DNA of 64,000 nucleotides from Venturia oleaginea (taxonomy: Eukaryota > Ascomycota > Dothideomycetes > Venturiales > Venturiaceae), in contig JABMLP010000022.1 in assembly GCA_013176395.1 (NCBI GenBank), forward strand, positions 186,001 to 250,000, read 5' to 3'. The notes below the pieces were generated by a model. It saw only the letters and a program-made list of their open reading frames with translations. It had not been told where the DNA came from and ran no database searches. Below, piece by piece: positions 6,249 through 64,000 of the stretch (position 1 is its first letter; every line of letters begins with the position of its first letter). Both the position numbers and the translations under genes were made by a program.

Positions 6249-6629
6249 TACCACCTTAGGACTACCTTTTTGTCCGATTGATGCAATATCACGCTCAAAC
6301 ATCCAACTAAGTCCCAAGATAGGTGAGCAACCAATAACTCCTAGCTTAAGTGTTACGCTGGATGAAAGTGCGTTTAGTTGACGATACTAGGAACAACTTC
6401 CAATGTTTTTGATGATATTAGGATAGAACTTCATATTCAACACTCCCTTAGCAATTATTAACCTAATGTAATTGCCTGCAATTTAATATCGCTACGGTTT
6501 ATAAATTTCTGGCAAGATCATTCCGCCAAGTTACTTCAACTTCAAAGATGTCGCTCACCAACACCTTTCTACGTTGCTACTTAATTTTACATGATTACAA
6601 CGTTATTGCTTACTTATTCAACCTGGCAA
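6249..6629. other. Intergenic, no gene seen
   Basis: Moderately AT-rich sequence between the tRNA and the BTB relic. No promoter or coding signal could be supported. Confidence 0.5.
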
Positions 6630-20110: not shown

Positions 20111-20506
20111 CCCGGGAATAGAAGATTGTTGAAGTTGTGGATTTTACGTTGAGTGGAGTTTTGGTGTTCTCAGTGTTCCTGAGATCTTGAGTGAAACACG
20201 ATAGTAATAGCCAAAGAAGAGTAATGATATTCAAAATCAGAGATTACTCATAGTAAATAAGATTGTTTGCACCATCTTTTATTCATTTAAGCTTTGTACT
20301 AATAACAAGTAGGACAACTAGTGTATTAATTGCCCATATAGTAAATACCTCACTGTCCTTCGCATCTCGTAATGTTTCGGAGTATCTGGAAGTGTGAATT
20401 AATAATATATTGAGGAAAGATACAATAAATGAGAGATATTTTAATAATCAACGATATATAGATGATGAATAGTTATAATAATGAGAGTAAATAGTAACTT
20501 ACCTTA
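20111..20506. other. AT-rich flank left of the transposon
   Basis: Mostly A+T with no coding signal. It holds the 3' UTR of the upstream gene and then AT-rich DNA up to the element boundary. The contrast with the GC-balanced neighbours would suit RIP spreading from the element, but this is inference. Confidence 0.5.
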
Positions 20507-20577
20507 AAACGTACTTCACAAGCGAGTGGGCCACCCAAGCGAGTGGGCCACCTCACAAACGTAAACCGCCTTCGTAA
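20507..20577 (+). repeat. Left terminal inverted repeat with internal 17-bp duplication
   Basis: CAAGCGAGTGGGCCACC occurs twice in tandem at 20519-20535 and 20536-20552. Removing one copy makes this end match the right repeat along its 54 nt with only a few changes. Confidence 0.9.
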
Positions 20578-20630
20578 AAATACTACGCAACCCTACAACA
20601 ATTTATAATATTAAATAGAATAGAATAATA

Positions 20631-22260
20631 TTATTTAGAAGCTTCGCTATCATCTATATTCTCTATTTCTACCTCACAAGTGCGGGAGTTATGCCCAGTC
20701 TCGCCGCAACGGCCGCAGTGCCTCTCTCCACGTACCCTCTTCGCAGGCTTCTCACCATCGTTACGATTACCATCCTCCCTTATAGTAACTAAGTCAGTTA
20801 ATTCACCAGCTGTCAAGGTCTGCTCAGTCCGTATATATCTCCCTTTGCGACTCTTACGCTTTGTAACTGCCCCAATTGCGTCTCGAAGGCGCGCTGTTTC
20901 TTCGCGCATCAACACCATTTCATGTACTATCTGCTGCGCGCCTTTACTCAACTGCCTGATCTGCTCATCAATAGAAATTGCAGAGGATCCTGGGCGCTTT
21001 TGCATCCTCTTTCGAATAAGCGTTGCCTGCGCCTCAATCTCGTGGGCGTTGCGCGGTGTCTTTGCCTCCCATGCGACAGTACCTGATCGTGGCGGAGTCG
21101 GCGTACGTAGCCTCACATCAAGCTTCGATAACACTGCATCTGGGTTGTGTGGGACTAGCCCAGCTGCTCTAAACCCTGCGCAGATATTCTCCCTTGAAAA
21201 TGCCTTGTCGTAGGCTGCTTTGAATGCTGGTAGGAAGTCTTCTTTTGATATATGGTAGGTATGGTTGCGTGCCAAGGCCGAGATCTCATCGCCGTACCTA
21301 CGCTTCAATGGCGAGAAGCAGGCAACGTCAAGAGGCTGTAACAGGTGCGACGAGTGTGGAGGCATACAGAGAGTAATAATCTTCCTCTCTCTACATAGAT
21401 CCTGGAAATCGACCGAACAATGGCTCTCATGGCCGTCGATAATAAGTAGTCTGTATACTCCAATTGGTTTCGTATACGTGTCGAAGTGTTCAAGCCAGGC
21501 AAGCGCTAGGTTATTGTTCGTCCAGCCATTGGGGCTAACTTCAATAATCCAGTCGCGAGGGACGCCTTCGAACCAAGTAGAGATGAGGACCTTGCCCGCA
21601 AAGATAAGGAAGGGTGGGATCGCCTTCCCTGATGAACCGACGCCTTGTATCAGGGTAACCCACTCACGATCGCCTGGCTGTAGTTTTTTCTGCTTGCCAG
21701 GTTTCTCTGAGCCTGTAACGACTAGCTGAGACGATATCTTGCCTATTAAGAAGCCAGATTCATCAAAATTGTAGGTATAATCGTCTATGATACCGTACTC
21801 TGCCTTTCTCCTCTGAACAAGTGTGAACCAGAGTAAAATAACCGCCGGGTCTTCGCAGGCAGCTCGCTGGCGATCGTATGGACGGCTTCATCGGGTGGTA
21901 AGCTCTGGCGTACGCTTTACCAAGTTGTTAACCCAGTTCTTGCCAACAGGCTTCCCACCCCGCTCTCTTAGTAGTTTATTAGCCATATCTTGTACGTAGG
22001 CCTTCGACGGCGGTAGGCCGCGTAAGCTTTCGTTAAGGATACGCTTTATAACCACCTCCTCTTCTAGCTTTGTCAATCACTTCGAGTTCGGCTCGCATTC
22101 GCGTCGAGGGCGCTGTCCGGCGCGTCGGCGTTGTACTGTTGTTCGAGGTACGCTATATATTACTGCAGCGCGTCTTTCGCTTTGGATTTGCTTTGAATTG
22201 ATATCTGAGATAGCAAGGAATATATCTCCTTCTCTTCTGCTTTTCGTCTTGTTGAGGCAT
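20631..22260 (-). pseudogene. pogo/Fot1 transposase, inactivated
   Basis: Cut-and-paste transposase with an N-terminal CENP-B-like helix-turn-helix (TTVQRRRAG, then LTKLEEEVVIKRIL, then NWVNNLVKRTPELTTR), a DDE core, and a C-terminal zinc knuckle CGRCGETGHNSRTC (CX2CX4HX4C). Core acids are visible in NFDESGF, LLIIDGHESH and LLQPLDVACF. The frame is open from about 21887 to 20631. Three lesions kill it: a small deletion near 22240 shifts the frame after the ATG, and TGA stops lie at 22079-22077 and 21890-21888. The second fits a CGA-to-TGA transition, as RIP would produce. It could still be bound or mobilised by an active relative. Confidence 0.9.
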
Positions 22261-22272
22261 TACGCGACGTTG

Positions 22273-22326
22273 TTACGAAGGCGGTTTACGTTTGTGAGGT
22301 GGTCCACTCGCTTGTGAAGTACGTTG
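22273..22326 (-). repeat. Right terminal inverted repeat
   Basis: Reverse complement of the left repeat, with GGACCACC where the left has GGGCCACC. It is followed directly by the TA duplication. Confidence 0.9.
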
Positions 22327-22328
22327 TA

Positions 22329-22811: not shown

Positions 22812-25158
22812 TTATAGACTTTCTCTTTTGCCCAAAAGCCATTCCAGGTGCTGGAAAGCCACTTCTGGGGCATGCTCTGGTCCCTTTGGATTTTTCAGTT
22901 AGCTCGGAATTCTTCTCGTAGAATCGAGTTTTCTGACTCGTTTGCATCGATGAGTTTTATTGACTTACCGTATGACCTGTTTTGAAAGCCTGACTCCACA
23001 TCAGTCCGCGCTCATAATGCTGAATCCCTGCGGGAGAATTCTGGCCTGGAAGACTGATTGGTGTGACCGGAGCATTTTGAAAGCCGAGTGAACCACTCCA
23101 TGTCATGTTCTGGATTGCCAGCAATGTCCCATTCGTAATGATGATCATGTCGTAGTCGCCGTTTGCCACCAATACGCGATTAGTGGCTTGAATCAATTTC
23201 GGAAGCACTGCTTGAATTGGATCTGCAGAGAGGTCTCCCTTTCGTTGAGGTCCTCCGCGACCGACAAACGTTTTCACGTCGTTACACATGACCCATTTGC
23301 TTGAAAAGGGTGCATGAAGCGCAGTCTTGACATCAGCACGATCGAAGTAAGCTGGGTTTGATCCTGAAGCCTTCATAACGTCGACACCTCTCGGGCAGGT
23401 TTTGTTGATCATGTAAATGTCGAAACAGCTATTAGCAGAGGCAGCTGCCCTCTCTACGAGCGTGAGAACGTCGCAGCTCATGTTCCTTGGACGGATGTTT
23501 GCTGGTTGGAGTCCTGGAGGTGGAAACTTCAAAAACTTTTCCAAAAGGTCTTCGTACCCGCAGAACTTGTGAAGTTCGTCTAGATCGCTTATTTGGCCCT
23601 TGTCAAAACCGAAAAGGTCATTGTTTGCTTTCACGAACGGTACCACAGGAACTTGCTGCTGGATCGCATCGTATTGGCCTATAGTTGGATCATACAACAA
23701 TGCACCTGGGGGCACAGTAAGTCAGTCAATCTTGATTTACAACACGTCAGGCAGGTCTTGACCGACGAGTCGAGGCGACTAGTCCATGAGCTATGCGTTC
23801 TCTAGCAGTATCCTCACGTCCGGCTTAAACTCTGAGCCCGTGATTGAAGTTGATGAATCTCCGGCAACTTCTAGAATGTTTAGCCAGAAACTAATCATCA
23901 TCTATCCTACTTTGAGAATCTTTATAGCCAACGACATCTTTGACGAAAAGGGAGAAGCAAGATGAAGGCGATGGCCTCGTTGTGAGGCCGCAAAAGAAAA
24001 TGTTCCATACCTTTCAAATCGAATAGGCTCGTGTCTTTCTGATCGAGGAATGCCGATGATATGTAAGGAATGTATCGTCCTGTAACGCTAATATTAGAAC
24101 GCTTCCCTAGAGAAGTTAACTCCACTTGCCTGCATATGACTGTCCTGCGTAATGCTGTTAGTATGTTCTTTCCAAAAGAATGACACGACCTACCAGTAAT
24201 ATAGATCTTGAAGTTCTTGATGCCAAAAGTTTCTTGGAAGTTTTTGAAGAAGCCAACGAAGTCGTTTGCGATATCCTCCTCAGAAGTCGCTGTCGGCTTT
24301 CCAACAGTATATCCAGTGCCAATGGGCTGCTCAACCCTATCTTCATATTCAGCGGTGGGCTCTCAGTTCACGACACATCGATTCTGTGTTCTCTCATATT
24401 TGAGAGGAACAAAGCTATCTTTCGAATACAGCTCATCCAACTTCGAACTGACCTCGATAAATCTATGATAGGTTGACTTGGATATTGCCAGAATATTTTC
24501 GAGGCCGATCACAAGTCGAGGTACTTGACACAGGAGACCTGTTACCGATCTCTAGACTTGGAGATGGAACAGAACGGCGCATACCATTGGGGATCTGCTT
24601 ACCAAAGCATGTTTGTCATATTAACCCTAATTTGTCATTCAGTCTAGGTCATATGCGCACAATTTCCATAATTATCACGTACCAGGAATGATCATTCAAT
24701 ACTGGCGCTGACTTGCCTTCATGCCACACAAATCGACCGTTCTCCTGAAAGAATCCTTCAAGCGAACTGCAGCCAGGACCCCCATTTAGCCAGATAGTGA
24801 TAGTGTCGACTGGTGGGCCAATCGTTGGCTGATAAACGAAGAAGAGTTGTCTCGAGAGGTCTCCAGCTTTCACTGGCATGAGGCCAGAATACATTTCTCC
24901 TACGGTGAATGGAACATCAGGCAGACTGTTGACGCGGAACCCTGATGTGTCGTTGTTATAGAATCGGAATTGGGACGGATCAGCCTCATGGCCACTTGGT
25001 TGTGAAATGGTCCGCTGCGTACTAGTCCACAGCTTCATCTTCGCCTCGCGATATACATCTTCAAAAGGTCGATATGTTTGGTATGTGGCTGCCAAAGTCC
25101 CACTGATCCAAGACATCCCAAAACAGAGCAGCAAGCCTACTAAAAAGGAAAGAGGCAT
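22812..25158 (-). CDS. Secreted serine carboxypeptidase, peptidase family S10
   Basis: Removes C-terminal residues from peptides; expected to be secreted or vacuolar. Six exons close in phase: 25158-24683, 24336-24194, 24144-24130 (15 nt), 24079-24011, 23705-22969 and 22883-22812, giving 503 residues. A hydrophobic signal peptide spans residues 1-23. The substrate-binding motif WLNGGPGCSS is present, then VEQPIGTGY. The nucleophile motif is GQSYAG (usually GESYAG). The Asp motif is NGDYDMI and the His lies in FKTGHT. The last exon gives FQHLEWLLG, the usual end. The intron after the microexon begins GCAAGT, a GC-AG intron. Direct splicing of exon 1 to exon 2 omits the usual ~8 residues around NLTNMVW, so a second microexon in the 346-nt intron 1 is possible. 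Two short repeats lie in its introns. Confidence 0.8.
23838..23906 (-). repeat. Intron-nested short element, copy in carboxypeptidase intron 4
   Basis: Diverged copy of the ~75-bp family inside the 305-nt intron 24010-23706. On the gene strand it shows TTTCTGGCTAAACATTC and AAGTTGCCGGAGATTCATCA, matching TATCTGGCAATTTCC and AAGTTGCCAGAAATTCATCG of other copies. Confidence 0.65.
24436..24510 (-). repeat. Intron-nested short element, copy in carboxypeptidase intron 1
   Basis: Lies inside intron 24682-24337. On the gene strand it carries AATATTCTGGCAATATCCAA and ends ATCGAGGTCAGTTCGAAG-TTGGA. These match the copy at 36547-36622 (AAATATCTGGCAATTTCCAA ... ATCGATGTCGATCTCGAG-TTGGA). Confidence 0.75.
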
Positions 25159-27774
25159 TGTTGAACAAGATGCGAGCAAGAAAGGGAAGCAGTCGCAATC
25201 AAAAGGAGAGATCTGGCATGAGGAGGGCATGCAATTTTGACAGCTACAAGGCCGCCCAGCTTCAGGTATCGCCCATCGAGTCAGTGCCCCAAGAACAAGC
25301 CTATATCTATATTGTTCCGTCCATTGTCGGTAAAGCATATAGATGAGGGGAACACAGGGCCAGCGAAAGGCTCAACAAAGGTAGCAAATAATGTATACTC
25401 CTGCCATGCTGGCATCGATCCGGCTCATGGGAGCCGAGGGAGCCATGAGAGCGTACAGTGTCACCTAGGCTAGGCCAGAGACTATCGTTAAGCGAAAGCG
25501 CATGATATCGCGGGGGCAGCGGATGTGTTTGATGGCACTATAATTGTGCTCTTCTGAGATTGGGATCATGGAGCTTGGTAAAATTGCGCGATACGGCTAA
25601 AGTTCTAGAGTGCCTCCTACTATTCTATACCAAACTTGCCTAGTGCTTGGGGGCTTGTACGAGTCCTAGATGGAAATTATTCCAGCTATTCCAACCTACA
25701 TAGTGGATCTGGCGACGTGTACGAGTATTCTAACCCAGCTAAATTTGACTGGGCTCGGATGATCCTACCGCAATATAACCACAGAATTTTTCAATATAAT
25801 CAAATACTTCGTACACCTCAACACAGATTGGAACGATTGCAAATGAAAATAAGCGCGTTAAGTCTCGACCCCAATCATTTCAACCCAGATCTCGTACAAG
25901 CCCTGACCCTTCCACGAACAGGCTTTGTAAAACTGCACCTTCGTCGTCGTTGAATTACCGGTTTCTATTCTACCGTCCAACCATGAAGCCATTGGAAGGC
26001 TGCCTAAGGCAATCGTCGTAGGTGCGTCAACCGAACAGCAAACCTTGATCCATCGATCTTTCGTCCACCATTCAGATAATCCTGCTTTCCAATAGAGACT
26101 CCCTTTGATCTCGGAATCGCACACGGAATCGAAACAGAAGGGAGAATTCAGCAACGAGTTCCGAGCCAAAAACTAAGCCAGTAAAATTCTGGCCACCCCT
26201 CTCGACCGTCTACCGTCTTAGACTCCAGCCCATCAAATGCCCTTACATTAGCTCCCTTGAGAGCGTTGAGTGTCAAGGAAATGCGCTATTGTAGCTCGGC
26301 TGAAATTCATCATTCTCGACACCGATGACAGCTACGACCTTAATGTGGATGACAAGCGTAAGAGCATTGCGGACGACATTGGATGTGTTTTAGACTTGGA
26401 AGGTCAATGGTAGCATGTCTGGTACTAGCCGGGCATTTGTGAAGTCGGACTCCAAGATATTGTTCTCTTTTGCCTAATTCTCGCCGGGGGTGAGGATATG
26501 AGATAAAGATGGCAAGCCTCGGACGATTTCCCGGCCAGATCACGCAAGGTATTCTGGATAACTTATCTCTTCGGACTTTTTCAATCCTCTCATGCATTAT
26601 GAGAAGTCCATTCCATCTCGGATTCATAATAATCCCATCTCGAGCCAGAGCTTGGGAGGCTGAAATTCCTTGTAAGATAGAAGCTAGGCCAATAAAAGAT
26701 CGGCATCCCTCAATTCCAACCTTTGGCGGCTGGAAGACCGAAAAGTTGTGCTCTTCGTGCTCAATCATGTAACATTTCTTTATTACAAAGTTACACTCTT
26801 CTTCTTTCAAATCTGAAGTAGTTGAAAAGCATACGACCCATTCCATCTTTGCTCGAAGTACTTGCGACTCGCTCAATAGGAACTTAAACCTACATGATGG
26901 ACAGGTTAGGTACAAGAAAAAACACTAGTATTCAATTTCCACCCCAATTCCAGCACTAATCTTCTGGGTCTACTGCAATTACAAAATCTGGAAACAGGGA
27001 CCTCAACAATCAGATGATAAAGCAACGAAAACCGAATTCACCTCATACGCACGTAAACAGAACACAATCGCAATCGGAAATCAAATGTCCCAAGTCCCGA
27101 ACAAATCCATTCGCGCAACCAGCTAGATTTCCCCTTTTAATCTGTAGGCAGCATCGCCATTGAAATTGGTTTCGCTTACCGCCGACCCTCTAAAAACACT
27201 TCCGCGCATGAAGAAGCAATCTCATCACCACCAATCCGCAATTATGAGATTTTATGTGGGACCAGAAACTGGTTTTCCCTCGACTCGAGGGAAGTTTTGA
27301 TTTACTTGCAGCGATGGTGTTGAGAAAGAGATCAGGTAGTAAGTATAGATAGTAAGGACGTTCGTAATACTATGTGTAGTTAAGAGCTCGATGACCCGAA
27401 GAAAACGTCAAGTTCATCATTCGGAGCTGGTTTATTATGGTGGCGGTGAGCGACATTTTTTCACGATAACCTACTGTTGTTGTTGTGGGATAAATGGGAG
27501 TGCGACATTGGGATGAGGAGAAGATATTTCGGCCGTGCCAGCCAATCATTATAAGCTCCAACGCCCAAAACGATTCTTTCTCACCATGAATGTTTCAACT
27601 AGCATTCTTGGTGTTGAGCCTGTTACCTGCTCAGCCACGAAAGGGGGTCGTGGACTGTGAGTTTGTTTGAGGTATATATGGTTTTTGCCATCCGGCCATC
27701 AAATCCTTTCTCAACTCCCATTTACCTTTCTGTCACTCAGACATTCGTTCTGCGGTTCTTCTTCAATCGGCACC
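25159..27774. other. Long intergenic region, weak ORFs only
   Basis: Contains the carboxypeptidase promoter and about 2 kb without a supported gene. Two minus-strand open stretches were considered: 26169-25858 (104 codons, with WWTKDRWIKVCCSVDAP, looks protein-like) and 26915-26340 (191 codons, no recognisable motif). Neither has a clear family, intron signals or a neighbouring exon. Treat them as possible relics at best. Confidence 0.35.
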
Positions 27775-28762
27775 ATGCTGGCCCTTGGTGTGATCTTGTT
27801 GCTTCCAACATTCTTTGTTCCAATTGCTGCGTCGCCACTTTCGATTCACATCCGTTCCTTTACCGATATCTTCTCACGCGCAGATACATGCAACGGTAAC
27901 GCAGCACTATGCGACCGTAAATATTCGGAAGTTACATTTATCGGCACTCACGACTCCCCTTTTGTTGGACTCCTTCCAACGCAAAACCAGGTCAAATCCA
28001 TTACCGATCAATTGAATGGAGGGATTCGATATCTTCAATCTCAAACCCACAATTTTGAGAATAAGTTGAAGATGTGCCATACATCTTGCGATCTGGAGGA
28101 TGCTGGACCTGTTGAGGATTACTTGAGAGAGTTGAAGACGTGGATGGATAAGAATCCGAGGGATGTGGTTACCTTGCTGTTGACAAATCCTGATAAAGTA
28201 CCTATGAGCACTTTTGATGACGTTTTCAAGAAGGTTGGGCTGGATCAGATGGCATTCAAGCCCGATCGTGCTTTAAGCCCGCTCGCGATGGATGTCTGGC
28301 CTACTATTGGAAATATGATCGCCTCTGGACAGAGACTTATTACGTTCATTGGTGTGTATTAGCCCTGTAGATTTGGACGATGAAAGCTAACTCTCAACAG
28401 ACTATGGAGCCGACGAAAATGCGGTCCCCTATCTCCTCGACGAATTTAATTACTATTTCGAAACGCCCTACGGCGTGACCGACTCCAAGTTCGCCCAATG
28501 CAAGATCGATCGGGCGAATAAAAGGAACGCAGACGGCAAAGCTAGCATGTTCATTGTCAATCACATGTTAAATGTCAAGCTCCCCTTCGATATAGTCATG
28601 CCGGACAGAATCAATGCAGGAAAAACGAATGCAGCATCGAGCATCAATGCGCAGACGGATCTCTGCAAAGGATTGTATGGGAAAAATCCTAATGTTGTGT
28701 TGATCGATTTCTTCGGCCAGGGAGATCCGATGCCAGCGCAGATTAGGATGAATGGATTGTGA
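27775..28762 (+). CDS. Secreted PLC-like phosphodiesterase (PI-PLC X-type TIM barrel)
   Basis: Exons 27775-28351 and 28401-28762 join in phase (GT...AG with CTAAC) for 312 residues. Residues 1-20 form a signal peptide. The X-type core starts at FIGTHDSPF, whose His would be the first catalytic one, then LNGGIRYLQSQTH, MCHTSCDLEDAGPVEDYL and DVVTLLLTNPDK. These are hallmarks of the fungal PLC-like phosphodiesterase superfamily. The protein ends without a GPI signal. Substrate unknown: such proteins may cleave phosphoinositides or GPI anchors, or be inactive. The more upstream ATG at 27667 is disfavoured because the signal peptide begins at 27775. Confidence 0.85.
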
Positions 28763-29493
28763 ATTTGGTCGATATACCACGATGGAGTTTGATAGCACCT
28801 TTAATATATTGCTGGTTGAGAGGGAACAGAAGACTGGTGAGATGTAGGCTTCAATTCTGCCCCTTGTGAGGAAGGAAATAATGCTGTGATTGAGTAGCCT
28901 CACCAAAGATTGATTAATCCCTTACCATTCATCCATTCCCTGGCGCTGTTGCCGAAGTGTGTGAAATTACCCGGAATTCCGTCATCATGACTGGTTGAGC
29001 GCATGAATGAGACAAGAAGATTTGTGAGTTGTAAGATATCATCCATCCTCCCTACTTGTCAAACATCGGCAGGCCTTGACGGGAATTGTTCCAATGCATA
29101 GGTAACAATTATGTGAGGACCCTGGATGGTTGCTTCTTGAACTCCAAGCGCACCAATGTGATGATGTTAACTTCAAGATGAGAATCCAGAAAGGAAAATG
29201 GTATCGACCCTGACCCTCTGAATGTTAAAAGGCAATAGAATAGGATTGGAGGAGTATTTCAGTCCCAGCGAGGACTCAATGATTTATACAATGTTTTGTA
29301 TTTCAGTTGAGGTTGAAGATGATAGAGAAGGAGAGGTGGAAGGCTCAGATGAGCGACTCGGGTCCATGTCACGTGACTCACACTTAGTTCTGTGCGAAAT
29401 CCCTAAAAATGAGGGTGGCCTTATAACTGATTTACCTCAACGCCAACTCCAACACCACGCAGTTCGTTCGACAAGATCCCACACATCTTCACA
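28763..29493. other. Intergenic and RPL33 promoter
   Basis: No gene seen. The final part should be the promoter of the ribosomal protein gene. The open stretch 29222-29728 overlaps its first exon in another frame and is not coding. Confidence 0.5.
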
Positions 29494-30222
29494 ATGCCTG
29501 AATCTGGTCACCGGTTATACGTCAAGGGTGAGCCTTTCCTCGATCCCGCCGCGCACACTCAAACTCGAATTCAACGCAGTCGCACAAACCGCCGGCGAGA
29601 AGGGCCATGTCTCCCTCTTTCACTTACCTTGGGAGCGGGATGGTTTGGGTTCTGTTATCGGACTGGTACCTTCTGCAGGCTTGGATTGGAGGCTATCTTT
29701 GGGCAGAAACAAAATCTGGACAGAATAGTGGCTAATATTGTCCCTCTCAGGTCGTCACGTATCCTACCAGCGTGCCAAGCGCAACACAAACCCCGATACA
29801 TCTCTGCTACAATTGGAGGGTGTCGGATCATCAGAGGCAGCACAGTAGGTGGCACACTATGAAAGAGCGAAGGCATGATATTGACAAGAAACAGGTTCTA
29901 CTGCGGAAAGAAGGTCGCATACGTTTACCGTGCGTCCAAGGAGATCCGAGGCACCAAGATTAGGTCAGTCAACATGCAGATCGAACAATCGGCAGTTATA
30001 TATGTCGAGATTGAGGAATATTTACTAACATCATCCAGAGTTATCTGGGGCAAGATCACCAGAACGTAAGCTAGACGCGATTGAAATACCAAGCGCGCAT
30101 TGACTAATAATTCCTACAGCCACGGTAACAGCGGCATCGTACGAGCACAGTTCCGTAACAACCTCCCACCAAAGTCCTTCGGTGCTTCAGTTCGTGTCAT
30201 GCTTTACCCAAGCAACGTGTAA
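29494..30222 (+). CDS. RPL33: 60S ribosomal protein L33 (eL33, L35Ae family)
   Basis: Large-subunit ribosomal protein of 108 residues, the normal length. Five exons close in phase: 29494-29527, 29751-29844, 29895-29963, 30039-30065 (27 nt) and 30120-30222. The spliced text runs [67 protein letters not shown] and ends [11 protein letters not shown]. The acceptor at 29894 is preferred over 29888 because it gives AAQFY as in yeast. The 223-nt first intron right after the start region is typical of ribosomal protein genes. Confidence 0.95.
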
Positions 30223-30886
30223 GGGAGGCAATGTGTTGATGTGGGGAAAATAAAGCAAGCGGGATATATCAAGGCGCCTTTGCAACAGACGACTGCACAA
30301 CTGCTCGACCAGTCTTCTATTACTCAAGGTTGGTGTCACGGATGACTTTATGGGCAAGGGGTCAACCCAATTCACATAGGGATGAATAAAACCTGAAGCA
30401 ATCAAGATGCTTTCTTGAACCCAACCAGTAATCACACGAATCCTTTCTTACATTTGTAACGGTCATTCCTCGTTCCAAAGCAAAATGGGCAAACCCTTAA
30501 AGGGAGTTTGGGCCTGGCAAGTGGAGCCGTGAATTCAAGACGCTTAAATCGAGATGAACATGATTAAACTTCCCAAAATTGGTTTTCGACGCTCGTCAGA
30601 AAATTTTCGCTATCGATGTCCAGCCGGAGGAGTCATCCATTCGTGTGACAGTTCGTCGTCGCAGGGCAATCGCCCTGTTCCTGGCCGTGATGACGTTGGG
30701 AAAACCGAGAACTTGTACCTAGATTCAAAGCGAGCAGAGACTGAAAACGCTTCATAACAACCAAATCATTTCACACTTCTGACTTGCGCGTGTCCCTCGT
30801 TACCCACCGCTTCTAATGCTAATCAGGTAACATTCACTCACTCATTCACAATCGCACCATGCCATAAATCGCACCCACTCGATATC
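30223..30886. other. Intergenic, RPL33 to P5B ATPase
   Basis: Presumed 3' UTR, then promoter of the ATPase. A degraded copy of the short repeat family lies at 30548-30624. Confidence 0.5.
30548..30624 (+). repeat. Short element, degraded copy upstream of the ATPase gene
   Basis: Seventy-seven bases starting ATCGAGATGAACATG and ending TCGTCAGAAAATTTTCGCTA then TCGATGTCCAG. The end resembles TTGTCAGAAAATTATCGATT of the copy at 34812. Weakest member of the set. Confidence 0.45.
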
Positions 30887-33800
30887 ATGAGCAACAACCA
30901 CGATGCTGCCGATAGGCGCAGCTTCATGGAGGATGGAGGAAGAGACGCAAGGAGAAGCAGCTTATACAGACGTAGCTCCAACATGAGCGAGGTGAGCTTC
31001 ATGACCGAAGTCGAAATGGCTACCGAGGAGGTTTTCTCTGGGCCGCTGGCTGAAAGTGTGCCTACGAGCGTGTCTGCCTTTTCCCACCGCGGCCATTTTC
31101 GATCCGACTCGACCCCCAGCTTCCAATTTTTCGATGAAGAGCAGGATGGACTGGAATGGAGTGAAGAGGACGTGATAATTGACGAGGATGCGGAAAGCTT
31201 GAATGGCGACCTCCAATATGAACACTACGACTCGGATCATCTCGAATCTGGCAGGCGGCCATCGGGTAATAGGCGAAAATCTTCTGGAGATTCAAGGCAC
31301 AGAGCACAACCGGATGAACCTCTATTGCTGCGCCGGACTTCGAGTTCTTCAAGTACGCGTAGTGGGCGGCATGCGAATGGGAGACACAACCAGAAGATCT
31401 ACATTCTTACCGAAGACTTGACGATTGTAGTCGCTGGATTCACGACTTCCTGGATAGGCTTCTCTATATACATTATACTATGTGTCTTAACTGGCGGCCT
31501 GGGGTATTTGCTTTTGCGATGGCTCCCAAGATGGCGTATTGGACTGGTTGGCAAATCCACACCACTTCGCAAAGCCGATTGGGTCGTGATAGAGAATCAA
31601 TGGGGTGAGGTAGCAACACAGGACATTGTTCAGGTACCTTATGGACGCTCCCTGTCATCTGTGTTTGGAACTCACGAGAAAGCCATTCTCCGAGATTACC
31701 ACGAGGATGATGACCCAGGTAGGTCTATCTCATATAAAGTCCCCCAGATCAAGATCGATATCGCTGAAAATTCCAAAGACGGTCAAAATCAAGTTGCCAG
31801 AAATTCATCGATGTCGATCTCGGTTTGGAAGTTTTTGAAAGGAAGTGGCTAACCCACGCCCAGTCATCAGAACCTTGCGATCTCTGGACTACCGGTATAT
31901 TCGATTTTGCTTCCATCCAATCAAAGACAAGTTCCTCCTTGGGAATACCTGGAAAGATCCTGGCTGGACGGAGGTTCGCGCAGTTCGCGTCGGATTAGAT
32001 GAGGAAGAGAAAGAATATCGAGACCGAGTCTTTGGAAAGAATGTAATCGACATTGAGGAGAAGACCACCATGCAGCTGCTAATCGACGAGGCGTTTCACC
32101 CTTTCTACGTCTTTCAAATTGCTAGTCTTGTCCTTTGGTCCCTGGACGAATACTACTATTATGCTACCTGTATCTTCATCATTTCGATTATCAGCATTGT
32201 TACCACACTCATCGAGACAAGGGCAACTATGCGACGCCTGCGGGAAGTGTCACGCTTTGAGTGCGATGTTCGCGTACTTCGAAATGGATTTTGGCGCTCA
32301 ATTGAGTCCAGCGACCTAGTACCAGGTGATGTCTACGAAGTCACGGATCCAAATCTTCCTCAATTTCCATGCGACAGCTTGCTGCTCTCGGGAGATTGCA
32401 TCGTCAATGAGAGCATGTTGACAGGAGAGTCGGTTCCTGTCTCCAAGGTTCCAGCGACTGATGAGTCCTTACAGTTGCTCTCACTAGGATCCGCTTCCGT
32501 CCATCCGGACGTCGCGAAACATCTCCTGTTCAGCGGTACAAAGATCATCCGAGCAAGAAGACCTCAAGAAGGTACTGACGATGAAGCCGCTGCGTTGGCT
32601 ATGGTGGTCAGGACTGGCTTCAATACCACAAAAGGAGCCCTCGTGCGATCAATGCTATTTCCAAAGCCATCAGGATTCAAATTCTATCGAGACTCGTTCC
32701 GATACATCTCTGTCATGGGCGGCATTGCTGCCATTGGTTTCATCGTCTCGTTCGTCAACTTCGTGAACCTGGGACTCGCGTGGCACTTGATTGTGGTTCG
32801 AGCCCTCGACCTGATCACCATAGTCGTCCCTCCAGCACTACCGGCCACGCTCACAATTGGAACAAACTTCGCGCTATCACGACTCAAGCAGAAAATGATC
32901 TTCTGCATCAGCCCGCAGAGAGTAAATGTTGGTGGTAAGCTCGATGTTATCTGCTTCGACAAGACAGGAACCTTGACCGAGGATGGCCTTGATGTTCTGG
33001 GTGTACGGGTTGCTCAAAAGAACAACTTCAGCGATCTACTCACTGACACGGACGCTATTCTACCTCGATCGTCGTATGAACGAGATCCGACTATCGACTA
33101 CGACACCAATCGAGCAATACTGCATACAATGGCCACCTGCCATTCTTTGAGGAATATCGATGGAGAGCTCCTCGGAGACCCGCTTGACGTAAAGATGTTC
33201 GAATTTACCGGCTGGCAGTACGAAGAAGGAGAACAACGGGGGAATCAGGACGAAGATGATGGCACTACCTTGACACCATCTGTTGCTCGACCCCCTAGCG
33301 GTCAAGAATATGACGCCGATGACGACCCACGGGACCCAAACAGAAAACCCGTCGAGTTAGGGGTGCTCAAATCCTACGAATTCGTCTCGCAGCTGCGCAG
33401 AGCCAGCGTTGTCGTGAGACAGTTTGGAGCCAAAAGCGGTGACATATATGTGAAAGGCGCACCTGAAGTCATGAAGGAGATTTGCCGACCTGAGAGTTTT
33501 CCACAGGACTATGAGGAACTTCTCGGATACTATACACACAGAGGCTTCCGAGTTATTGCTTGCGCCACAAAGTCGATTCCTAAGCTTAACTGGGTCAAAG
33601 TCCAGAAAATGGGTCGCGAACAGGCAGAATCTGACCTTGACTTTCTCGGATTCATCATCTTTGAGAACAAATTGAAGGAGAAGACTACGGAGGTCATTAA
33701 AGAGCTCGCCACCGCCAACATTCGCAAGATCATGTGCACTGGAGACAACATCTTGACGGCTATTAGCGTTGCCAGAGAATGCCACCTGATTGATCCAACT

Positions 33801-35283
33801 GCGCACTGCTTTGTGCCCCATTTTGTTGAAGGCAATGCGAGGACAGCATTGTCGAAGCTGAGCTGGGAAAGTGTGGATAACTCGATCTATACTCTGGACG
33901 AGAACACGTTACTACCCTTGCCAGCGCCTGCAGAAGGTGATGCATCTCTACCTTACGACGTTTCCAACCTTCGAAACTATTCCGTTGCTGTCAGCGGTGA
34001 TGTCTTCCGCTGGATTGTCGACTTTGCGCCCGAAAAGGCCATGCGAGAGATGCTCTTAGTGGGACAAGTCTTTGCCCGCATGTCTCCCGATGAGAAACAT
34101 GAGCTGGTAGAAAAGTTACAAGGCAAAGACTACTGCGTTGGTTTCTGCGGTGATGGCGCAAACGACTGCGGAGCCCTCAAGGCTGCTGACGTAGGCATCT
34201 CCCTCTCTGAAGCCGAAGCATCGGTCGCTGCACCTTTCACCAGCCGTGTCTTTGACATCTCCTGCGTTCCTGAAGTCATTCGCGAGGGACGAGCTGCTCT
34301 CGTGACCAGTTTCAGCTGCTTCAAGTATATGAGCTTGTATTCAGCGATTCAATTCACGTCTGTAAGCTTCTTGTATGCCACAGCTAGTAACTTGGGCGAC
34401 TTCCAATTCTTATACATCGATCTGGCGTTGATCTTACCGATTGCCATCTTCATGGGGTGGAGTGGGCCATATCCCTACCTTAGCAAGAAGAGGCCAACAG
34501 CGAGTTTGGTGTCGCGGAAAGTTCTTACACCACTTCTTGGCCAAATCACTATCACAGTCATCATTCAATTCATTGGATGGTGGGTTGTACAGAAGCAACC
34601 GTGGTACCAGCCTCCAGTTCTCGATAGAAATCGCTCCAACTCGCTCAACTCGCAAGATACGGCACTTTTCCTGCTCTCATGTTTTCTCTACATCCTGTCA
34701 GCAATTGTGCTGAGCGTTGGCAAGCCGTTCAGGCAGCCGATGTCGAAGAATCGTGAGTATTCCCCTCGCCCTTTTGAACCAATTTATGCCCATGTATCAC
34801 TACCATTGTGAGATCGATATAAGTGAATTTCCGGCAATTTGCAAAGTTATCTTGTCAGAAAATTATCGATTTCGATCTCACATTGAAGGTCTCCAGGTCA
34901 AAAGCGACTGTCGTCTTACAAAAATCTGAAAGCAGATATGACTGGAGCTTCTTCTGAGCTGACTCGCTCATGCAAAACTATGCTAACCATGGACAGTGCC
35001 GTTTGTAATCACTATGATGACAGCCCTTTTCCTCTCCGCCTACATGCTTACTGACCCGGCTCAGTGGCTCACTGATCTTATGGACCTCACTTATATGAGT
35101 TTTGACTTTAAATTGTTCCTACTCGGGCTCGCGGCGGGGGGATTTGCGGTCATGTATTTGAGCGAGATATTCGTCTTTCCAGCCCTAGCGAGGTGGATTG
35201 GTATAGTGAAAGTCAAGGTGGCGCCAAGTACGAAGAAGAAGAGAAAGGAATACAAGATTATTGCTGAAGGAATGAGGTTTTAG
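30887..35283 (+). CDS. P5B-type cation/polyamine-transporting ATPase (Ypk9/ATP13A2 family)
   Basis: Membrane P-type ATPase of the vacuole or late endosome; relatives (yeast Ypk9, human ATP13A2) export polyamines and confer metal tolerance. Exons 30887-31718, 31864-34752 and 34997-35283 close in phase (1,335 residues). Residues 1-165 are Ser/Arg-rich and probably cytosolic. The first hydrophobic hairpin (WIGFSIYIILCVLTGGLGYL) follows near residue 190. The A-domain motif MLTGESVPVSK is near 460. VPPALPAT, the P5B membrane signature, is near 600; P5A pumps have PPELP instead. FDKTGTLTEDG with the phosphorylated Asp is near 643, and GDGANDCGALK near 1040. Six C-terminal helices are split by the last intron. 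Two introns each contain a ~75-bp repeat. Confidence 0.95.
31753..31829 (+). repeat. Intron-nested short element, ATPase intron 1
   Basis: Begins GATCGATATCGCTGAAAATT and ends ATTCATCGATGTCGATCTCG, then GTTTGGA. It fills 77 of the 145 nt of intron 31719-31863; the remainder is the size of an ordinary intron here. Confidence 0.8.
34812..34886 (+). repeat. Intron-nested short element, ATPase intron 2
   Basis: Begins GATCGATATAAGTGAATTTC and ends AAATTATCGATTTCGATCTC, then ACATTGA. It lies inside the 244-nt intron 34753-34996. Confidence 0.8.
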
Positions 35284-36179
35284 TCGCGTGGAGAGTGTGT
35301 GTACGATAGGATTGGTGTATGGATTATAGAGAGAAGGGTGTTATTGGTGATCTCAAACGGATAGATGACTGGCCACTGAATATTTGAGATTGCGAGGGAT
35401 TTAGAAATTGAAGATGAATTGCTTTACTTTGATTTAGGATGGATCGTCATTATCCAATTTTGAAAACAGGGTGGCGAGGAAATACAAGAACAATCGCTAC
35501 TGTGCTAGCGATTCCAGTCTTCTGGACACCCTCATATTGACAGGAGTCTTCGTCCACGCTTCTGCCAATCGTGAATCATTCCGAGCATTAATTTTCAGCT
35601 CTTTATAGCCTGCTTACGGTCTGGCATCACCAGTAATACTCCATGGACTATACAATAGACCGACTGGCTAGCCAGCGCGCGCTCCACACTCTGCCATTTC
35701 AAACCCCCATCATCTCGCTCCGGAGCTTCATCGCACCAGAACAGGGCACTACTACACGGAAAGAGGCCTAACTCCTTTGTTGCACAAACCTCTTTACCCG
35801 TTACATCAGCTTGAGGTACAAGTGTATGCTCTCACCAAGGAGCCCTCAGAGCAAAAGAGTGTGCTGTGTCGAAAGGTATGTATACAATCGCGAAGCTTCC
35901 CATTCTATACCGGTATCAGGTGAAAATAACTAGTGACCGATTCCTTTCTCTCCTATCGTTTGAGGAAAATAAGTCACTAGCTATCGATGGCATGGCTTTC
36001 GAATTGGGATCGATCTCGAGAATTTTCTAGCGACTTTGAAAATCGTTTCCGCCAAAAAATCTTCGATATCGATCTCGAATCGGCAGTCACAGATTGGATG
36101 GAGTAAGGGAATCGTCAGCGAGGTGCAAGCAAACTGGACATCCCGTTCAACCATTGTGCTATAGAAATCTAGCAAGTGT
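35284..36179. other. Convergent intergenic region, ATPase and RPA49 3' ends
   Basis: Noncoding. Contains 3' UTRs of the two convergent genes and one copy of the short repeat family (36008-36083). Confidence 0.6.
36008..36083 (+). repeat. Short element, intergenic copy
   Basis: Begins GATCGATCTCGAGAATTTTC and ends TCTTCGATATCGATCTCGAA. Its 76-nt length equals the intronic copies. It lies within 100 bp of the RPA49 stop, possibly in the 3' UTR. Confidence 0.75.
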
Positions 36180-37739
36180 CTACCTCTTCTTCCTCTGTGT
36201 GATGACCCTCTGCTTTGGCCACACCAATGGAATGTTTAGCCTTGCCACTGCATGTCCTTGTCCCTCGGCCTTTGATTTCAAGCCAAATTTGGCTCTCTCC
36301 TTCTCTGAAGGCGGTGATACCTTACAGCCCAATTCCGAGTAGTATTGGTTCATTTGTTGGGGTTCCATACGCAGATCTTCGCGGATATTGTGGGTGTCGG
36401 TGATGAAATCGTCAATGTGGAGGGTCATGGCGCAGATGTGTAGAATTAGTTTATCGAGGTGCCACTTGGATAGTTCGCTGCCGATAATCGTCAGTGAAGC
36501 TTCTTAAAGTAGAAGTGTGATGGGACAATGCGATCCCTCAAATCCGGATCGATATCGATAAATATCTGGCAATTTCCAAGAATGAATTTCCATAAGTTCA
36601 TCGATGTCGATCTCGAGTTGGACATTATGACCGGTTTTGAGCTATGTAATGGATAGTACTGACCTGCCCTGTGCAAAGGTTCGTCGTATGCCGTCTAGAA
36701 TGCCCCCGTCTACACCTGTGGCTTTCTTCAGATCCTCCCTCGTAGGCAGCTTCTTCCCTCCACCTCTCAAAGGCTTCAATGCGACGTAGAAGTTCAGAAG
36801 GATGTACAAGTATTTCATGACCTTCAGCATTCTCGTCTTGCCGTTCAGAGCGTCCAGTCTGAATGCGACGAAGCGCATATTTGTCTCAATCTTCTCGCCT
36901 GCAGCAATGGCATCTTCCCAGTCTTTAACTGCCAGTTTCGAGAGGTCTTCATCACTAACCAGATCCTTCAATGCATATGCTTCGGAAGGTCTTATAGCAT
37001 CAAGGTTGGGCTTAGGACGTGGGTGCGCGCTATCGATTGTGGCCTGTTTGGCTTCACGAGTTGGTATTGAGGCCGTTGTCGCCGCGAGATTGTCCATTAT
37101 AGCTCCTGCACGGGCGTCTTGACGCGTGCCAGCAGAAGCGGCGCCATTTTGCGGTGTAATGGCATTCTCTGTGAGCGATGCAATGGCCTTCTTCGCCTTC
37201 TTGGTACCAAATTCCATGCCCAATGTCTGTCGCAAAGAGCCCATGGTCTGTCTCTTCTGTTCTCTGGCAGCTGCTTCGTCCAACTCTTCTTGACTTGGCC
37301 GTAACGTGCTTCTTATGGTGACATGTGGTACCTCGATGACAGTGAGCTTTCCTGCCGCAGGATCAAAGACGGCGGCATAGTGCTTCAACAGCTTTTCGCC
37401 ATTTCCCGAACTCTCCTCCTGTCCCTTGTAGTCTAGTCGCGGGTGTGTAGAGCTGTGTAGTAGAATTTCGCTTTCGGCGTCTTCGTCACGTCGCGATTTG
37501 TTGGATTTCTTGTAGGCTTTGAAAATGAGGTTCTGAGGCACGGAAAAGCCTGGTGTAGATGCTGGGACAGTGTGTTAGACTTGGCAGAAATTGATCTCTT
37601 CTCACCCACCGATTACTGGGCCTTGTCCGATGCTTTCTTTGGGGAGATGCGTCACCCTGATTGTGTTGGATCTAGCGACTCTTTTGTGGGGCCTCTCCTC
37701 ACGGCCCTCTCTCTTGCGCTTCTTGTCTCTGTCGGCCAT
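36180..37739 (-). CDS. RPA49: RNA polymerase I subunit Rpa49 (A49)
   Basis: Pol I-specific subunit; with A34.5 it forms a TFIIF-like module, and its C-terminal tandem winged helix helps initiation and elongation of rRNA synthesis in the nucleolus. Exons 37739-37610, 37561-36664 and 36477-36180 close in phase (441 residues). It starts MADRDKKRKREGREERPHKR, a basic nucleolar-type tail. The dimerisation-domain region includes YAAVFDPAAGKLTVIEVPHV. The linker and winged-helix part includes LPTREDLKKATGV and, after the last intron, ELSKWHLDKLILHICAMTLH. The protein ends at VITQRKKR. The 186-nt second intron holds a short repeat. It is divergent from the gene at 38167. Confidence 0.92.
36547..36622 (+). 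repeat. Intron-nested short element, RPA49 intron 2 (best-preserved ends)
   Basis: Begins GATCGATATCGATAAATATC and ends TTCATCGATGTCGATCTCGA, then GTTGGA. The first and last ~17 bases are nearly inverted repeats of each other. It lies inside intron 36663-36478, antisense to the gene relative to the ATPase copies. Confidence 0.85.
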
Positions 37740-38166
37740 TTTGGGGCAGTTGTAGGTCGCAAGATGGCTTCAAAAATATTTTTCGAGATCAAACCTCCGA
37801 CGGCCGATGTGCGCCACTGTGGCGTCAAGACGCGAACTTCTACCGAAGACGCGTTCCGCCTTCAATGCCCGACTTTCATTCAACACGTCCAACAAAAGAG
37901 CGATCTTGATAAAATCCCGGCAATAGGGCTCTCAACTCAATACAAGGCTTCTGTCATGAAATCGTCTGCTTGAATCCTCCATCTCTGGCATGTGGTGACC
38001 GTTAGGAGTTAGGTCGTTGCATCACCATCGTTGCCTCCACCACTGGAATCGGGTACCGGAGACCGTTGACACCCAAATATTGCTGGCAGCATGCAAACTT
38101 TCTGATTGCTGACTCCTTCGAGCAAGATACTCAACACTATCCAACGCGAGACCACCAGAGTTAGCC
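37740..38166. promoter_or_regulatory. Divergent promoter, RPA49 / promethin-like gene
   Basis: A 427-bp gap between two starts in opposite orientation, so both promoters must lie here. No specific element could be supported. Confidence 0.6.
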
Positions 38167-40303
38167 ATGTATGCAGCAAAACACCTCGTGCAATGCTTGT
38201 CCAATGCCTTCAACGCGATCCTACCACCAAAGAAGAGACATGCTATAAGACAAGTGCTCCAGGACTTTGCTTATGTCTATCCAAGGCTTGCCGTGTGTTC
38301 ACCTCCACCTTACCGCCGCACCAAGAAAGACTCGCCGATGCTACGGGTACAATGCTAACACCATGTTACAGGTCTTCCTCTCCCTCAACATGGTCCTTAC
38401 AGCCATTCCACTGCTTTGTTTCGCCGCATTTGCTCTCACCGTTCTCTTGTCATCCTTGATTGCAGCCCTGTTCGTTGCTATTGTAGTCACGCTGTTTACA
38501 ACAGCACTCGCCATCTTTGCTGCCTCGTTAATACTCCTTCCAACCATGTTTCTCACCACTCTCGCCGCCTTTTCCCTCTACTTCTGGGGTCTTATGGTAT
38601 ACTACACATTTGTCTATCTTCAAGGTGCAGGTATTGCTCGTTCGGAAAATGCCGTTAAAAGCACGGGTGCTGTCCCTTCAGACAATGACGAGTGGGAAGA
38701 TGTAGAGGATGGTGAATGTGGTGGAACCAGTAGGAGCATGGATGCCGTCACTTCAGACAATGCCATCCTTTCAAAAGACGAGACGCCTTCCAAAAGTGCC
38801 TCTCGTTCTGCCGACGCCGCTCCTGCCGATGCCACCCCCTCTGACGATGCCAATCAGAGCACGGATGTCGTCCGTCCAGACAATGCTATGGATTTTAAGG
38901 TCAATGATTGGTCTGAGGGAAGGCTCGGCTGTACTTCAAGGACAGATGCCCGCCCAAAGGTCGAAGCAAAGGACAGTGCCATTGGGTTTGAGGGCCTTGA
39001 AGGGAAGCCGATTCGCAAATTCGAGACGATGACGTCTGAGGTTCACCACGAGGGTGCTGTGAATCCGCACCTGTCGTCGCTGGCTGAATCAATCCATTCT
39101 GAAATTGCATACACGGGTGAGTTTTTATTATTTTATCCCGTTAGCCACATTGGCCTCAGTCCTGGAAGATCTCTTTTCTCCATAAACTCGGTATGAGTGA
39201 GTGCACTTCCAGCAGCAGGCTGGGCGTTCTTTTCATGCCTCTCGATCTCACAGCGAAGAACAATTTATCATCATTGATGTGAAATCGATATCAAGGAATA
39301 TCTGGCCTTTCGGATCCGAGAGTTACCAGAAACTCTCTATTGATCTTGATTCAGTGAGCTCTGTTCCGAGATGCCTATCAAAATGGTCAAAAGCACATGA
39401 ATTGGCGGCCCCGTTGGGAGCACATTTGTTCTTCATGTGAATAAAGTTTGAGAGGCTAGGAACCAACTAACGCTCGCGTTTTGCCTAGCTACCTCGCCCG
39501 CCGTTCCCAGAAGTCCCGACAGCCGTAGGAACTCCAAGAACTTTGTGTTCCCAATGCCACCTATCATAACGGGGGCGGGACAGCCATTTCGGTACGCCCA
39601 TCTAAGGGGAGAACACCCCGATGGATTGCGCCAAGATAGCAAAGGCTTGTTCAAGGTTGATGAAATCGCTTCTGACTCATCGCTCGAGGAGGCCGACAGA
39701 AAGCTGCGGCCGGATAGTAAACAGCACCTACGCAAACGCTCGGCCAGCTCCTTTACCCCCGTATCGCACGACCCGATAAAAGCTATCCCTAGCCTCAAAA
39801 GAGGACAAACGGCAGTCCACCTTCCTACGAGTGCAAAATTGGAAAGGCTCGATCCACCAGCTGCTGTAATTCAAGACCCCTTTGATGACACTACTGCTCA
39901 CGATTCGTTGTCGAACTAACTCTCGCCACAGACCTCCCCAACAACACGTTTGTCATTGCTTGGGTTCAAAAGATCGCTAGACGTTACCAAGGTCAAAACA
40001 GCCATGCTGAAGGAGGGAACCAATCCCGCAACTGGAAATATCATGTTTGCCCCCGTGGATTTGAATGCAGCCAATGCAGATATTGAGGACAACTGCGACA
40101 GCGGGCACAGCTCTGGGAAGTCGTCAGGTGAGATCGAGAGATTGGTGGAGGATACGACCTCGGCGGACGAAATGGATTTTGCGAGAATGCCGTCTACTCC
40201 TGAGGACGAACGCGGGCCCATCATCAAGTCAAGCATCTCGCCTTATACGGGCGAGATTGTTGAATCTTATTTTGGCGGCACAAGCCCGAAAACCGGAATT
40301 TGA
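38167..40303 (+). CDS. Promethin/LDO-like membrane protein with long disordered tail
   Basis: Exons 38167-38292, 38372-39116, 39489-39865 and 39932-40303 close in phase (539 residues). Residues ~43-115 are almost continuously hydrophobic (NMVLTAIPLLCFAAFALTVL, then LILLPTMFLTTLAAFSLYFW), resembling the hairpin-forming promethin domain of lipid-droplet organisation proteins (yeast LDO16/LDO45, human TMEM159), which act with seipin at ER-droplet contacts. The rest is a long Ser/Asp/Ala-rich, probably disordered tail with drifting short repeats (SDNA, SADA, SDDA), ending ISPYTGEIVESYFGG. Family call is from remembered pattern, moderate certainty. The first intron donor is GTGTGT. Skipping the 66-nt third intron would end the protein at 39919, a possible isoform. 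A short repeat sits in intron 2. Confidence 0.65.
39283..39357 (+). repeat. Intron-nested short element, promethin-like gene intron 2
   Basis: Begins AATCGATATCAAGGAATATC then TGGCC, contains GTTACCAGAAACTCTC and ends ATTGATCTTGATTCAG. It lies inside the 372-nt intron 39117-39488. Confidence 0.7.
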
Positions 40304-62396: not shown

Positions 62397-64000
62397 TATG
62401 CCAGGATGAAAGCTGTAGTTGCGATGGACGGGAGGATGGGTGTGCTGCTCTACTCTCTGAGTCGAGCGCGTACTCCCGGATGCAATGGTGGAAATCAACA
62501 GGAATGGAGTGGGTTGGTTGATGGATCTGGTGTGGAGGATTGGATTGCGGGCGGTTGGAGTGGTGTGTGTAGGAGAGTCGGGTCGGGAAAAGCAGTTGTC
62601 CTTGTTGTTCTCTGGGTGGAGGTGCGGCAGCGCGTTCGACTCGCTACTTTAGCTCCGGGAACAGCTGTGGGTCAGAAATGCCTGAACCTGGCCCCGGCGC
62701 GTATTCGAATCTCTCTCCAACCACCACAGTGACCACCATATCAGTCAAGACACCAAGCGCCGTGAAGGCATCTTGCGTGGTGTCTTCATGTCGTGTCGTT
62801 AAGTCTATCTCTTCGTGCAGCGCGGTTCAATCGTTCTCTCCGTGCAGCACGTTCAATCGTTCTCTCCGTGTAGCACGTTCAATCGTCCTATCCGTGCAGC
62901 ATCATGCTATTCTGTACTCCCGATACCAATGCCTCGTCGTCCCTCGTAACACCATGTACTCTGCTGCAGGCCGCCGAGGAACAATGGCAAAGCTGTGCAT
63001 GGGTAGCCCGTTCCCGATCCAGCAAGCTGGTGAAGCGGATAGAGGGATATGTGGGCTTCACCTATGCGACGTTGACGTTCCAGCCCCCACAGCGGAAGTA
63101 ACAGTCAACTAAAGGGCCAAAGTCTGGCCTCCTAAAACCGCCTTCCCCAAGGTCGATGAAAATAATGAAGCAAAGAATCACAACCCGTGCATCGGCAATC
63201 TCACGTGGCGAGTCATGTATGGGTAACGTTTCTTACCGCGGGATACAGAAGCGAGTCAGGCAGTTGTACTCATCTCTTGGCCTCGACTAGCGAGGTCAGA
63301 TTGCCCAGACGTGAGGAACTGGATTTGACCGAGTCGAGGAAGTGGGCTAGGGCTGAATAGGCCGCGACGGAGGAATTGTAGGTATGGCCGGTAGATATGA
63401 GGATATACCCATGATTTGGGAGTATCCGCTTTCGGAAGTAGGCGGTACTTTGGTTGCTTGCACAAAAGGCGTTCCAACCGGCTGTGTATACGAGATTCAA
63501 GCTTGATACCCCAACTGTGGCTTTATTGGTTTAGTGGTTCTTGACCTGTCTGTAGTGTAGAATGGAGACATCTTATACCGACAAGATGGATTGATGAACC
63601 AAACTACTACGCCTTCTATCTCTATTCCAAATAGATCTTCACGTCACGTCACACCAAAGTTCCATCCTCCTCCTCCGACTGAATCTTAATACCACTCACC
63701 AAACAAAAAAAATCCTTCCATTCCGTCTAACATAATTCCATATATCGCACCCACATCCAAAACAATCAAATAACCCCATTCCAAAGCTCCCGTCCTTCCC
63801 ACACCTCACCAACCCGCACTTGAATAGATACCGCATCTCTTCTTCTCCAAATTCAAGAGCTTGCCGCAAACCATCTAAAAGAAGCCACCCGACTATCTCC
63901 ATCCAATACCAAAACCACGCCAATAGTGTGGCACATAGAAACCAAACGGAAACCACAGGTTCGAAAAAGTTGATTGTTTTTCCACCGGGAAAAGGGCCTA
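62397..64000. other. TUP1 upstream region to window end
   Basis: TUP1 promoter/5' UTR, a tandem repeat at 62814-62903, and no other supported gene. The open stretch 63956-63696 (minus) near the edge has no recognisable motif and could only be judged with the next sequence. Confidence 0.45.
62814..62903 (+). repeat. 26-27-bp tandem repeat, about 3.4 copies
   Basis: Units beginning CGTGCAGC and ending CGTTCTCTC or CGTCCTATC follow one another at 62814-62840, 62841-62866 and 62867-62892, with a partial fourth. It lies about 420 bp upstream of the TUP1 start. Confidence 0.9.

Follow-up and report, generated by a model that had tools for sequence, protein, structure and literature searches.

The stretch of Venturia oleaginea DNA analysed here (the window: 64,000 nucleotides, C15:186001-250000 of an assembly of 46.08 Mb in 61 contigs) carries genes for an S10 peptidase, a P5B ATPase, RPA49 and a promethin-like protein. 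Copies of a short palindromic repeat element lie in and between these genes. A preliminary description of the window listed eight copies of about 75 nt between positions 23838 and 39357, and all eight are confirmed as matching a profile of one family. With a profile built from 42 copies found genome-wide, they score 22.6-70.8 bits, with E values between 1.1e-5 and 1e-20 for the 191.6 kb searched; six of the eight are among the rows of this profile, and those at 23838 and 24436 are not. The same two copies were left out of a six-copy profile, which recovers them in a search of the window (at 23843 and 24451; E 4.5e-4 and 1e-3) along with its own six members, found by construction at E 5e-19 to 7e-15. 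A ninth candidate (6485-6556, E 0.009) was left out of the copy count. The element cores, to which no strand is assigned, and their host introns are as follows.

About 23679-24010, minus strand: S10 peptidase intron holding the core at 23830..23914 (gene model; Peptidase_S10 domain across the intron)
23830..23914: element core, weak and decayed, in an S10 peptidase intron (profile 23.4 bits, E 6.5e-6; gene model)
About 24327-24584, approximate borders, minus strand: S10 peptidase intron holding the core at 24450..24521 (gene model; Peptidase_S10 domain across the intron)
24450..24521: element core, weak and decayed, in an S10 peptidase intron (profile 22.6 bits, E 1.1e-5)
30540..30627: element core ahead of the P5B ATPase start codon, either intergenic or in the 5' leader (profile 38.8 bits)
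31719..31863, plus strand: P5B ATPase intron, 145 nt, GTAGGT..CTAAC..CAG (tblastn of the V. effusa protein; gene model; sequence)
31740..31829: element core within the 145-nt P5B ATPase intron (profile 53.6 bits)
34753..34996, plus strand: P5B ATPase intron, 244 nt, GTGAGT..CTAAC..CAG (V. effusa tblastn exons join at residue 1208)
34802..34886: element core within the 244-nt P5B ATPase intron (profile 55.8 bits)
35996..36083: element core between the 3' ends of the P5B ATPase and RPA49 genes (profile 59.5 bits)
36478..36663, minus strand: RPA49 intron, 186 nt (gene model; the RNA_pol_I_A49 domain, 48-426, covers the junction at residue 338)
36535..36621: element core within the RPA49 intron, the top-scoring copy of the window (profile 70.8 bits, E 1e-20)
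39117..39488, plus strand: intron of the promethin-like gene, 372 nt (gene finder only)
39273..39352: element core within the intron of the promethin-like gene (profile 34.3 bits)

Six of the eight copies are intronic, as had been described: two in the P5B ATPase gene, two in the S10 peptidase gene, one in RPA49 and one in the promethin-like gene, the last according to the gene finder only. The Promethin domain (residues 14-125) stops short of the junction of this last intron, which is at residue 290. The two non-intronic copies are the one upstream of P5B and the one between P5B and RPA49. The P5B ATPase frame has its top match in Venturia effusa (95% over 98% of the query), and the other named P5B matches examined are mostly from Dothideomycetes. 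Note that the borders of the 244-nt P5B intron were read by eye; the 3' border given by the gene finder is 35023.

The length of 69-77 nt given for the copies holds for a core but not for the whole element, which is about 215 bp. When loci are compared, the likeness of some copies extends to about 210-220 bp. Among 16 copies with two ends, 13 measure 193-223 bp (eight of these 213-217) and the other three 113, 133, and 149 bp. The inverted ends of the element are CACAGTGGCTTCATCAATTCAGTGCCC, and the two-ended copies terminate in CACAGTGG...CCACTGTG. These terminal inverted repeats (TIRs) are 27 bp long and are found in copies from several contigs; the end motif is also written CACAGTGGCTTCATC. 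The consensus of the core is a perfect palindrome of 33 pairs with a loop of about 20 nt. Many sampled copies align to the whole-element profile over the core and part of the arms only. Clustering of 164 arms, a sample that takes in loci selected by their ends, gave end types of 46 and 7 arms, with pairs accounting for 6 arms and singles for 105. The core alone as a separate short mobile unit is not established; the arm profiles fade and have no sharp border.

The preliminary description had proposed to look for target-site duplications (TSDs), and a duplication of 4 bp is found. In 19 copies with their ends refitted to the TIR within 5 bases, the flanks agree at 41 of 76 positions, while shuffled pairs agree at 20.8 (standard deviation 4.2) and none of 2000 shuffles reaches 41. 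Lengths of 2, 3 and 5 to 10 bp gave no significant duplication in the same 19 copies. In a first scan, the strong signal was solely within the inverted ends, with a weak 3-4 bp signal outside them. The duplication can be seen in individual copies: GATG stands on both sides of a 223-bp copy in an intron of a GH18 chitinase gene (locus L017), and a copy at C61:301450-308080 (L118) bears CCAA on both flanks.

Short length, high copy number, terminal inverted repeats, and a duplication of fixed length are the properties of miniature inverted-repeat transposable elements (MITEs), and all of them are found in this family. The element is presumably too short to contain a transposase gene. Its CAC...GTG ends and 4-bp duplication agree with the hallmarks of Chapaev transposons as given in an excerpt of PMC4079192 (TSDs of 3-4 bp and ends 5'-CAC and GTG-3'). 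The CMCT clade is characterized, in an excerpt of PMC12730594, by mostly CA..TG ends and TSDs of 2-5 bp. The difference from CMC/Chapaev transposons is that no transposase is linked to the ends of the element. With a probability of roughly 0.83, these copies represent an old family of non-autonomous cut-and-paste DNA transposons, namely MITEs with CMC/Chapaev-like ends, that have been inserted into existing introns. The copies would have been moved by a CMC/Chapaev-type transposase acting in trans. Selection would then have removed copies landing in coding exons, and intronic copies may survive because the spliceosome removes them. The copies in the window are old.

Other fungal MITEs, of which mimp is an example, are likewise short and non-coding with inverted ends. 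The mimp elements are flanked by TA and of the Tc1/mariner type, and they are reportedly, going by the title of a study, located in promoters. The family here differs from them in its 4-bp duplications and its excess in introns. Many TIR elements are reported in Venturia genomes (an excerpt of PMC6686934). In the paper on the secretomes of V. inaequalis and V. pirina (PMC5412055), the word MITE appears once, in the reference list. Among the literature matches listed, there is no description of this family or of MITEs in Venturia introns. The family is of a known type (a MITE with CMC/Chapaev-like ends), and the intron excess is the interesting part.

The preliminary description had made its case depend on further genomic copies beyond chance, and these exist in large number. 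When up to 3 mismatches are allowed, the half-core GCCAGAAATTTATCGATATCGATC is matched 712 times in the genome and the reversed pattern once. A 21-base end has 154 matches and a 25-base end 37 (control 0 for each). The stricter pattern GATCGATATCGAT-N38..62-TCGATATCGATC is found at 8 places, each on both strands and all 67 bp long (control 0), and BLAST with one window copy gave 27 places, the query itself included. The half-core is present in 16 of 37 neighbouring or window elements, with 20 halves in total. From these halves per element, roughly 1300 elements would exist genome-wide; extrapolation from three elements in 50 kb of random sequence would give about 2800, and both are rough figures. 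The copies seem to cluster in the genome, with 29 neighbours in 127.6 kb of core-selected loci as compared with the three in 50 kb of random sequence. Dense clusters are seen in L014 (six elements) and L025 (five), in 3 kb each, some of the members being weak. The median divergence of 42 cores from their consensus is 11.8%. The changes from the consensus are C to T 5.6%, G to A 8.8%, T to C 6.6%, and A to G 6.5%, with no strong pattern of the kind left by repeat-induced point mutation. The exact core half has no match in viral contigs.

The enrichment in introns suggested by the window was tested on loci sampled across the genome. Ahead of the counts, the duplicate rows L001, L005, L006, L030, L034, and L035 were removed and L018 was cut to its non-overlapping tail. 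Among loci selected by the core, 14 of 47 have their central copy in a predicted intron (10 of 28 three-kb and 4 of 19 two-kb loci). In random sequence passed through the same gene finder, 994 of 40386 non-coding bases (2.5%) are intronic. This control consists of the first 2.5 kb of each of 20 stretches, hand-picked from 80 random positions on 19 contigs (31.9 of 46.1 Mb). The p value for the 14 loci is 5e-12 against the rate of 2.5% and 1.4e-4 against a conservative 10%. Counted by element, predicted introns hold 17 of 52 central copies in core-selected loci, 6 of 29 neighbours, and 1 of 19 central copies in end-selected loci (18 of 71 for the central copies pooled). The count per locus is preferred, because three of the 17 share one intron in L040 and two share one intron in L025; it leaves aside two of the 49 core loci and three of the 20 end-selected ones, from which the central element is absent. 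Against 2.5%, the 29 neighbours give a p value of 6e-5 and the two-kb core loci alone 0.001. A density ratio of elements per intron base within the element-centred loci was discarded as circular, and the random control took its place.

Many of the host genes can be named. The domain-span test took in 14 of 18 gene models, plus S10, and a Pfam domain covers the element-bearing junction in seven genes in total. These are RPA49, S10, TRM1 (L040, three copies in one intron), the GH18 chitinase (L017), a histone deacetylase (L050), DNA polymerase phi (L025, two introns with two copies each), and LETM1 (L026), where the domain reaches the junction at its edge only. NAA35 (L019) has two domains, one on each side of the junction. 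A junction-covering domain is shown for none of the LANC-like (L011), ion channel (L002), SRP40 (L029), and promethin-like genes and those of L020, L037, and L047.

Several points weigh against the proposed reading. The window copies have neither recognisable inverted ends nor a 4-bp duplication, and the autonomous partner of the family was not found. Loci selected by their ends show no intron excess, since the central copy is in a predicted intron in 1 of 17 (Fisher p 0.053 against 14 of 47 and 0.34 against 4 of 19). Against the conservative rate of 10%, the p value is 0.064 for the neighbours and 0.11 for the two-kb core loci alone. Introns were called by a home-made gene finder whose sensitivity is low and which reports coding sequence in 6 of the 20 random stretches. 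It misses genes, for example S10 and the last P5B exon, and of the nine stretches on which it was trained, one was in the wrong frame (11 stops).

The crude gene finder, the end-selected loci, and the pooled 18 of 71 central copies speak for random insertion, with the intron excess an artefact of sampling and gene calling, an explanation that competes with the enrichment only and leaves the MITE reading unaffected. Such an artefact is unlikely. The same gene finder places only 2.5% of the non-coding bases in introns over 50 kb of random sequence, the seven genes have a Pfam domain over the element-bearing junction (one at its edge), and six of the eight window copies are intronic. The intron excess is likely to be real, and its size is uncertain. 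It would most likely come from insertion into open, transcribed DNA together with a filter of exon loss and splicing. A doubtful but possible extension is that the transposase of this ascomycete DNA transposon preferred introns, or transcription or splicing, as its target; some genes are hit in two introns, and some introns twice or thrice. The family would then be a DNA-transposon counterpart of introners and possibly an intermediate towards them.

The preliminary description called the family MITE- or introner-like and regarded the elements as inserted into existing introns rather than being whole introns. The insertion and the MITE likeness are borne out by the inverted ends, the 4-bp duplication, the shifting position within introns, the presence of two or three copies in a single intron, and ordinary residual intron lengths. 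The introner likeness is not, the splice sites being those of the host intron and most sampled copies being unplaced in introns. The L017 chitinase intron opens with 20 nt, the last four of which are GATG; the 223-bp element comes next, and after it a second GATG and a further 28 nt that contain a branch-site-like GCTAATGA and CAG. When the element and one GATG are taken away, an intron of 48 nt remains, with its own splice sites. In the cases read, the host introns keep their own splice sites, so these elements entered existing introns. Element-bearing introns have a median length of 218 nt (n=23) and element-free introns 73 nt (n=34; p 4e-5). When the matched element is subtracted, the median of the former becomes 99 nt and the difference is gone (p 0.4); the subtraction covers the profile match alone, so that the residual length is over-estimated. 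The shortest element-free predicted intron is 47 nt, and 16 of the 34 are 47-66 nt. Subtraction had earlier been said to leave about 70-110 nt in the smaller host introns, but the 145-nt intron minus its 90-nt core match leaves 55 nt.

Introner-like elements (ILEs), in which each copy is or has created a whole intron and which multiply by intron gain, for example by reverse splicing, would also produce an intron excess. As described in an excerpt of PMC4457414, ILEs are whole introns, and those of Dothideomycetes, the same class, are repeats of high copy number that occupy introns of unrelated genes, with two in some of the genes. Two element-bearing introns per gene are likewise found here in P5B, S10, L011, L022, L025, and L047, and by our reading the 145-nt P5B intron and that of L022 barely exceed the core and near arms. 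An introner origin is nevertheless very unlikely. Host introns vary widely in how far their splice sites are from the core, with no fixed splice-site positions; single introns in L025 and L040 contain two or three copies; and the duplication lies inside the L017 intron. The element neither forms the whole intron nor supplies its splice sites. The family has inverted ends and 4-bp duplications and is inserted within introns, but copies are found outside predicted introns too, and most of those sampled were not assigned to introns. According to an excerpt of PMC9860276, the introner families of ascomycetes lack both TIRs and TSDs.

The claim that the family persists where splicing removes it agrees with the intron excess. 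Intronic copies are not detectably distinct from the rest in divergence or hairpin stability, however, which leaves selective persistence a conjecture. Of 90 elements, 74 were folded (23 intronic and 51 others, each scoring 30 bits or more), and no difference in hairpin stability was seen between the two groups (p 0.29-0.33). Core divergence does not differ between 16 intronic and 26 other copies (p 0.42). RNAalifold gave no consensus pair. A count on the given structure shows a mild excess of covariation, the score being matched by 5 of 500 shuffles and other measures by 9 to 29; this excess may come from the evolution of the source element. A functional hairpin was rejected on the RNAalifold result and the like folding of intronic and other copies, and the mild covariation stands. 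That selection keeps a conserved RNA or DNA element (a splicing hairpin or regulatory site) in introns is hardly credible, in spite of the perfect consensus palindrome and the covariation, given these results and the majority of sampled copies being unplaced in introns. All this is most simply read as a mobile element that is tolerated within introns.

Introns are often tiny in this fungus, so that about 215 bp of inserted element increases their length several times over, and genes such as RPA49, TRM1, a histone deacetylase, and a P5B ATPase still bear copies or remnants. Should the excess hold genome-wide, the family would offer a way to study whether introns are chosen by transposons or just tolerate them, and by what course introns lengthen when the genome is compact. 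The presence or absence of elements may also be useful as a marker among related Venturia species.

The search for an autonomous partner started from the ends of the element. Among the end matches listed (37 of the 25-base end and 100 of 154 of the 21-base end), one facing pair 1-10 kb apart was seen by eye. This pair (C61:301570-307963) was rejected as a partner, as it is a single element cut by a gag-pol retrotransposon. The retrotransposon nested in L118 spans about 6.2 kb; its frames of 340 and 1261 amino acids were named by eye as gag-like and pol-like. The L118 element is older than the retrotransposon, because the latter splits it. Transposase_21 has 39 matches in the genome, none of which is linked to the ends of the element. 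Two 4.5-kb Transposase_21 stretches contain no such end (the best has 11 mismatches in 27), and the ends of those transposons were not located. A KDZ search gave no match, with an uninformative control. Many Transposase_21 matches are near-identical in score, with frames of 288 amino acids (e.g., on C26, C31, C17, and C60), and two copies are 98.8% identical over 2588 bp. The Transposase_21 matches suggest a recently active CMC-type transposon.

Two other repeats were observed in the window. At 20505-22328, about 1.8 kb lie between a pair of long inverted repeats, of 66 nt (82%) and 31 nt (94%), and a frame of 243 amino acids on the minus strand (20631-21362) has a Pfam DDE_1 match (E 1.2e-6) that covers the last part of the domain. 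This resembles the remnant of a pogo/Fot1-type transposon. At 62798-62902, a 26-nt unit is repeated four times in tandem, with copies 77-96% alike to the reference copy.

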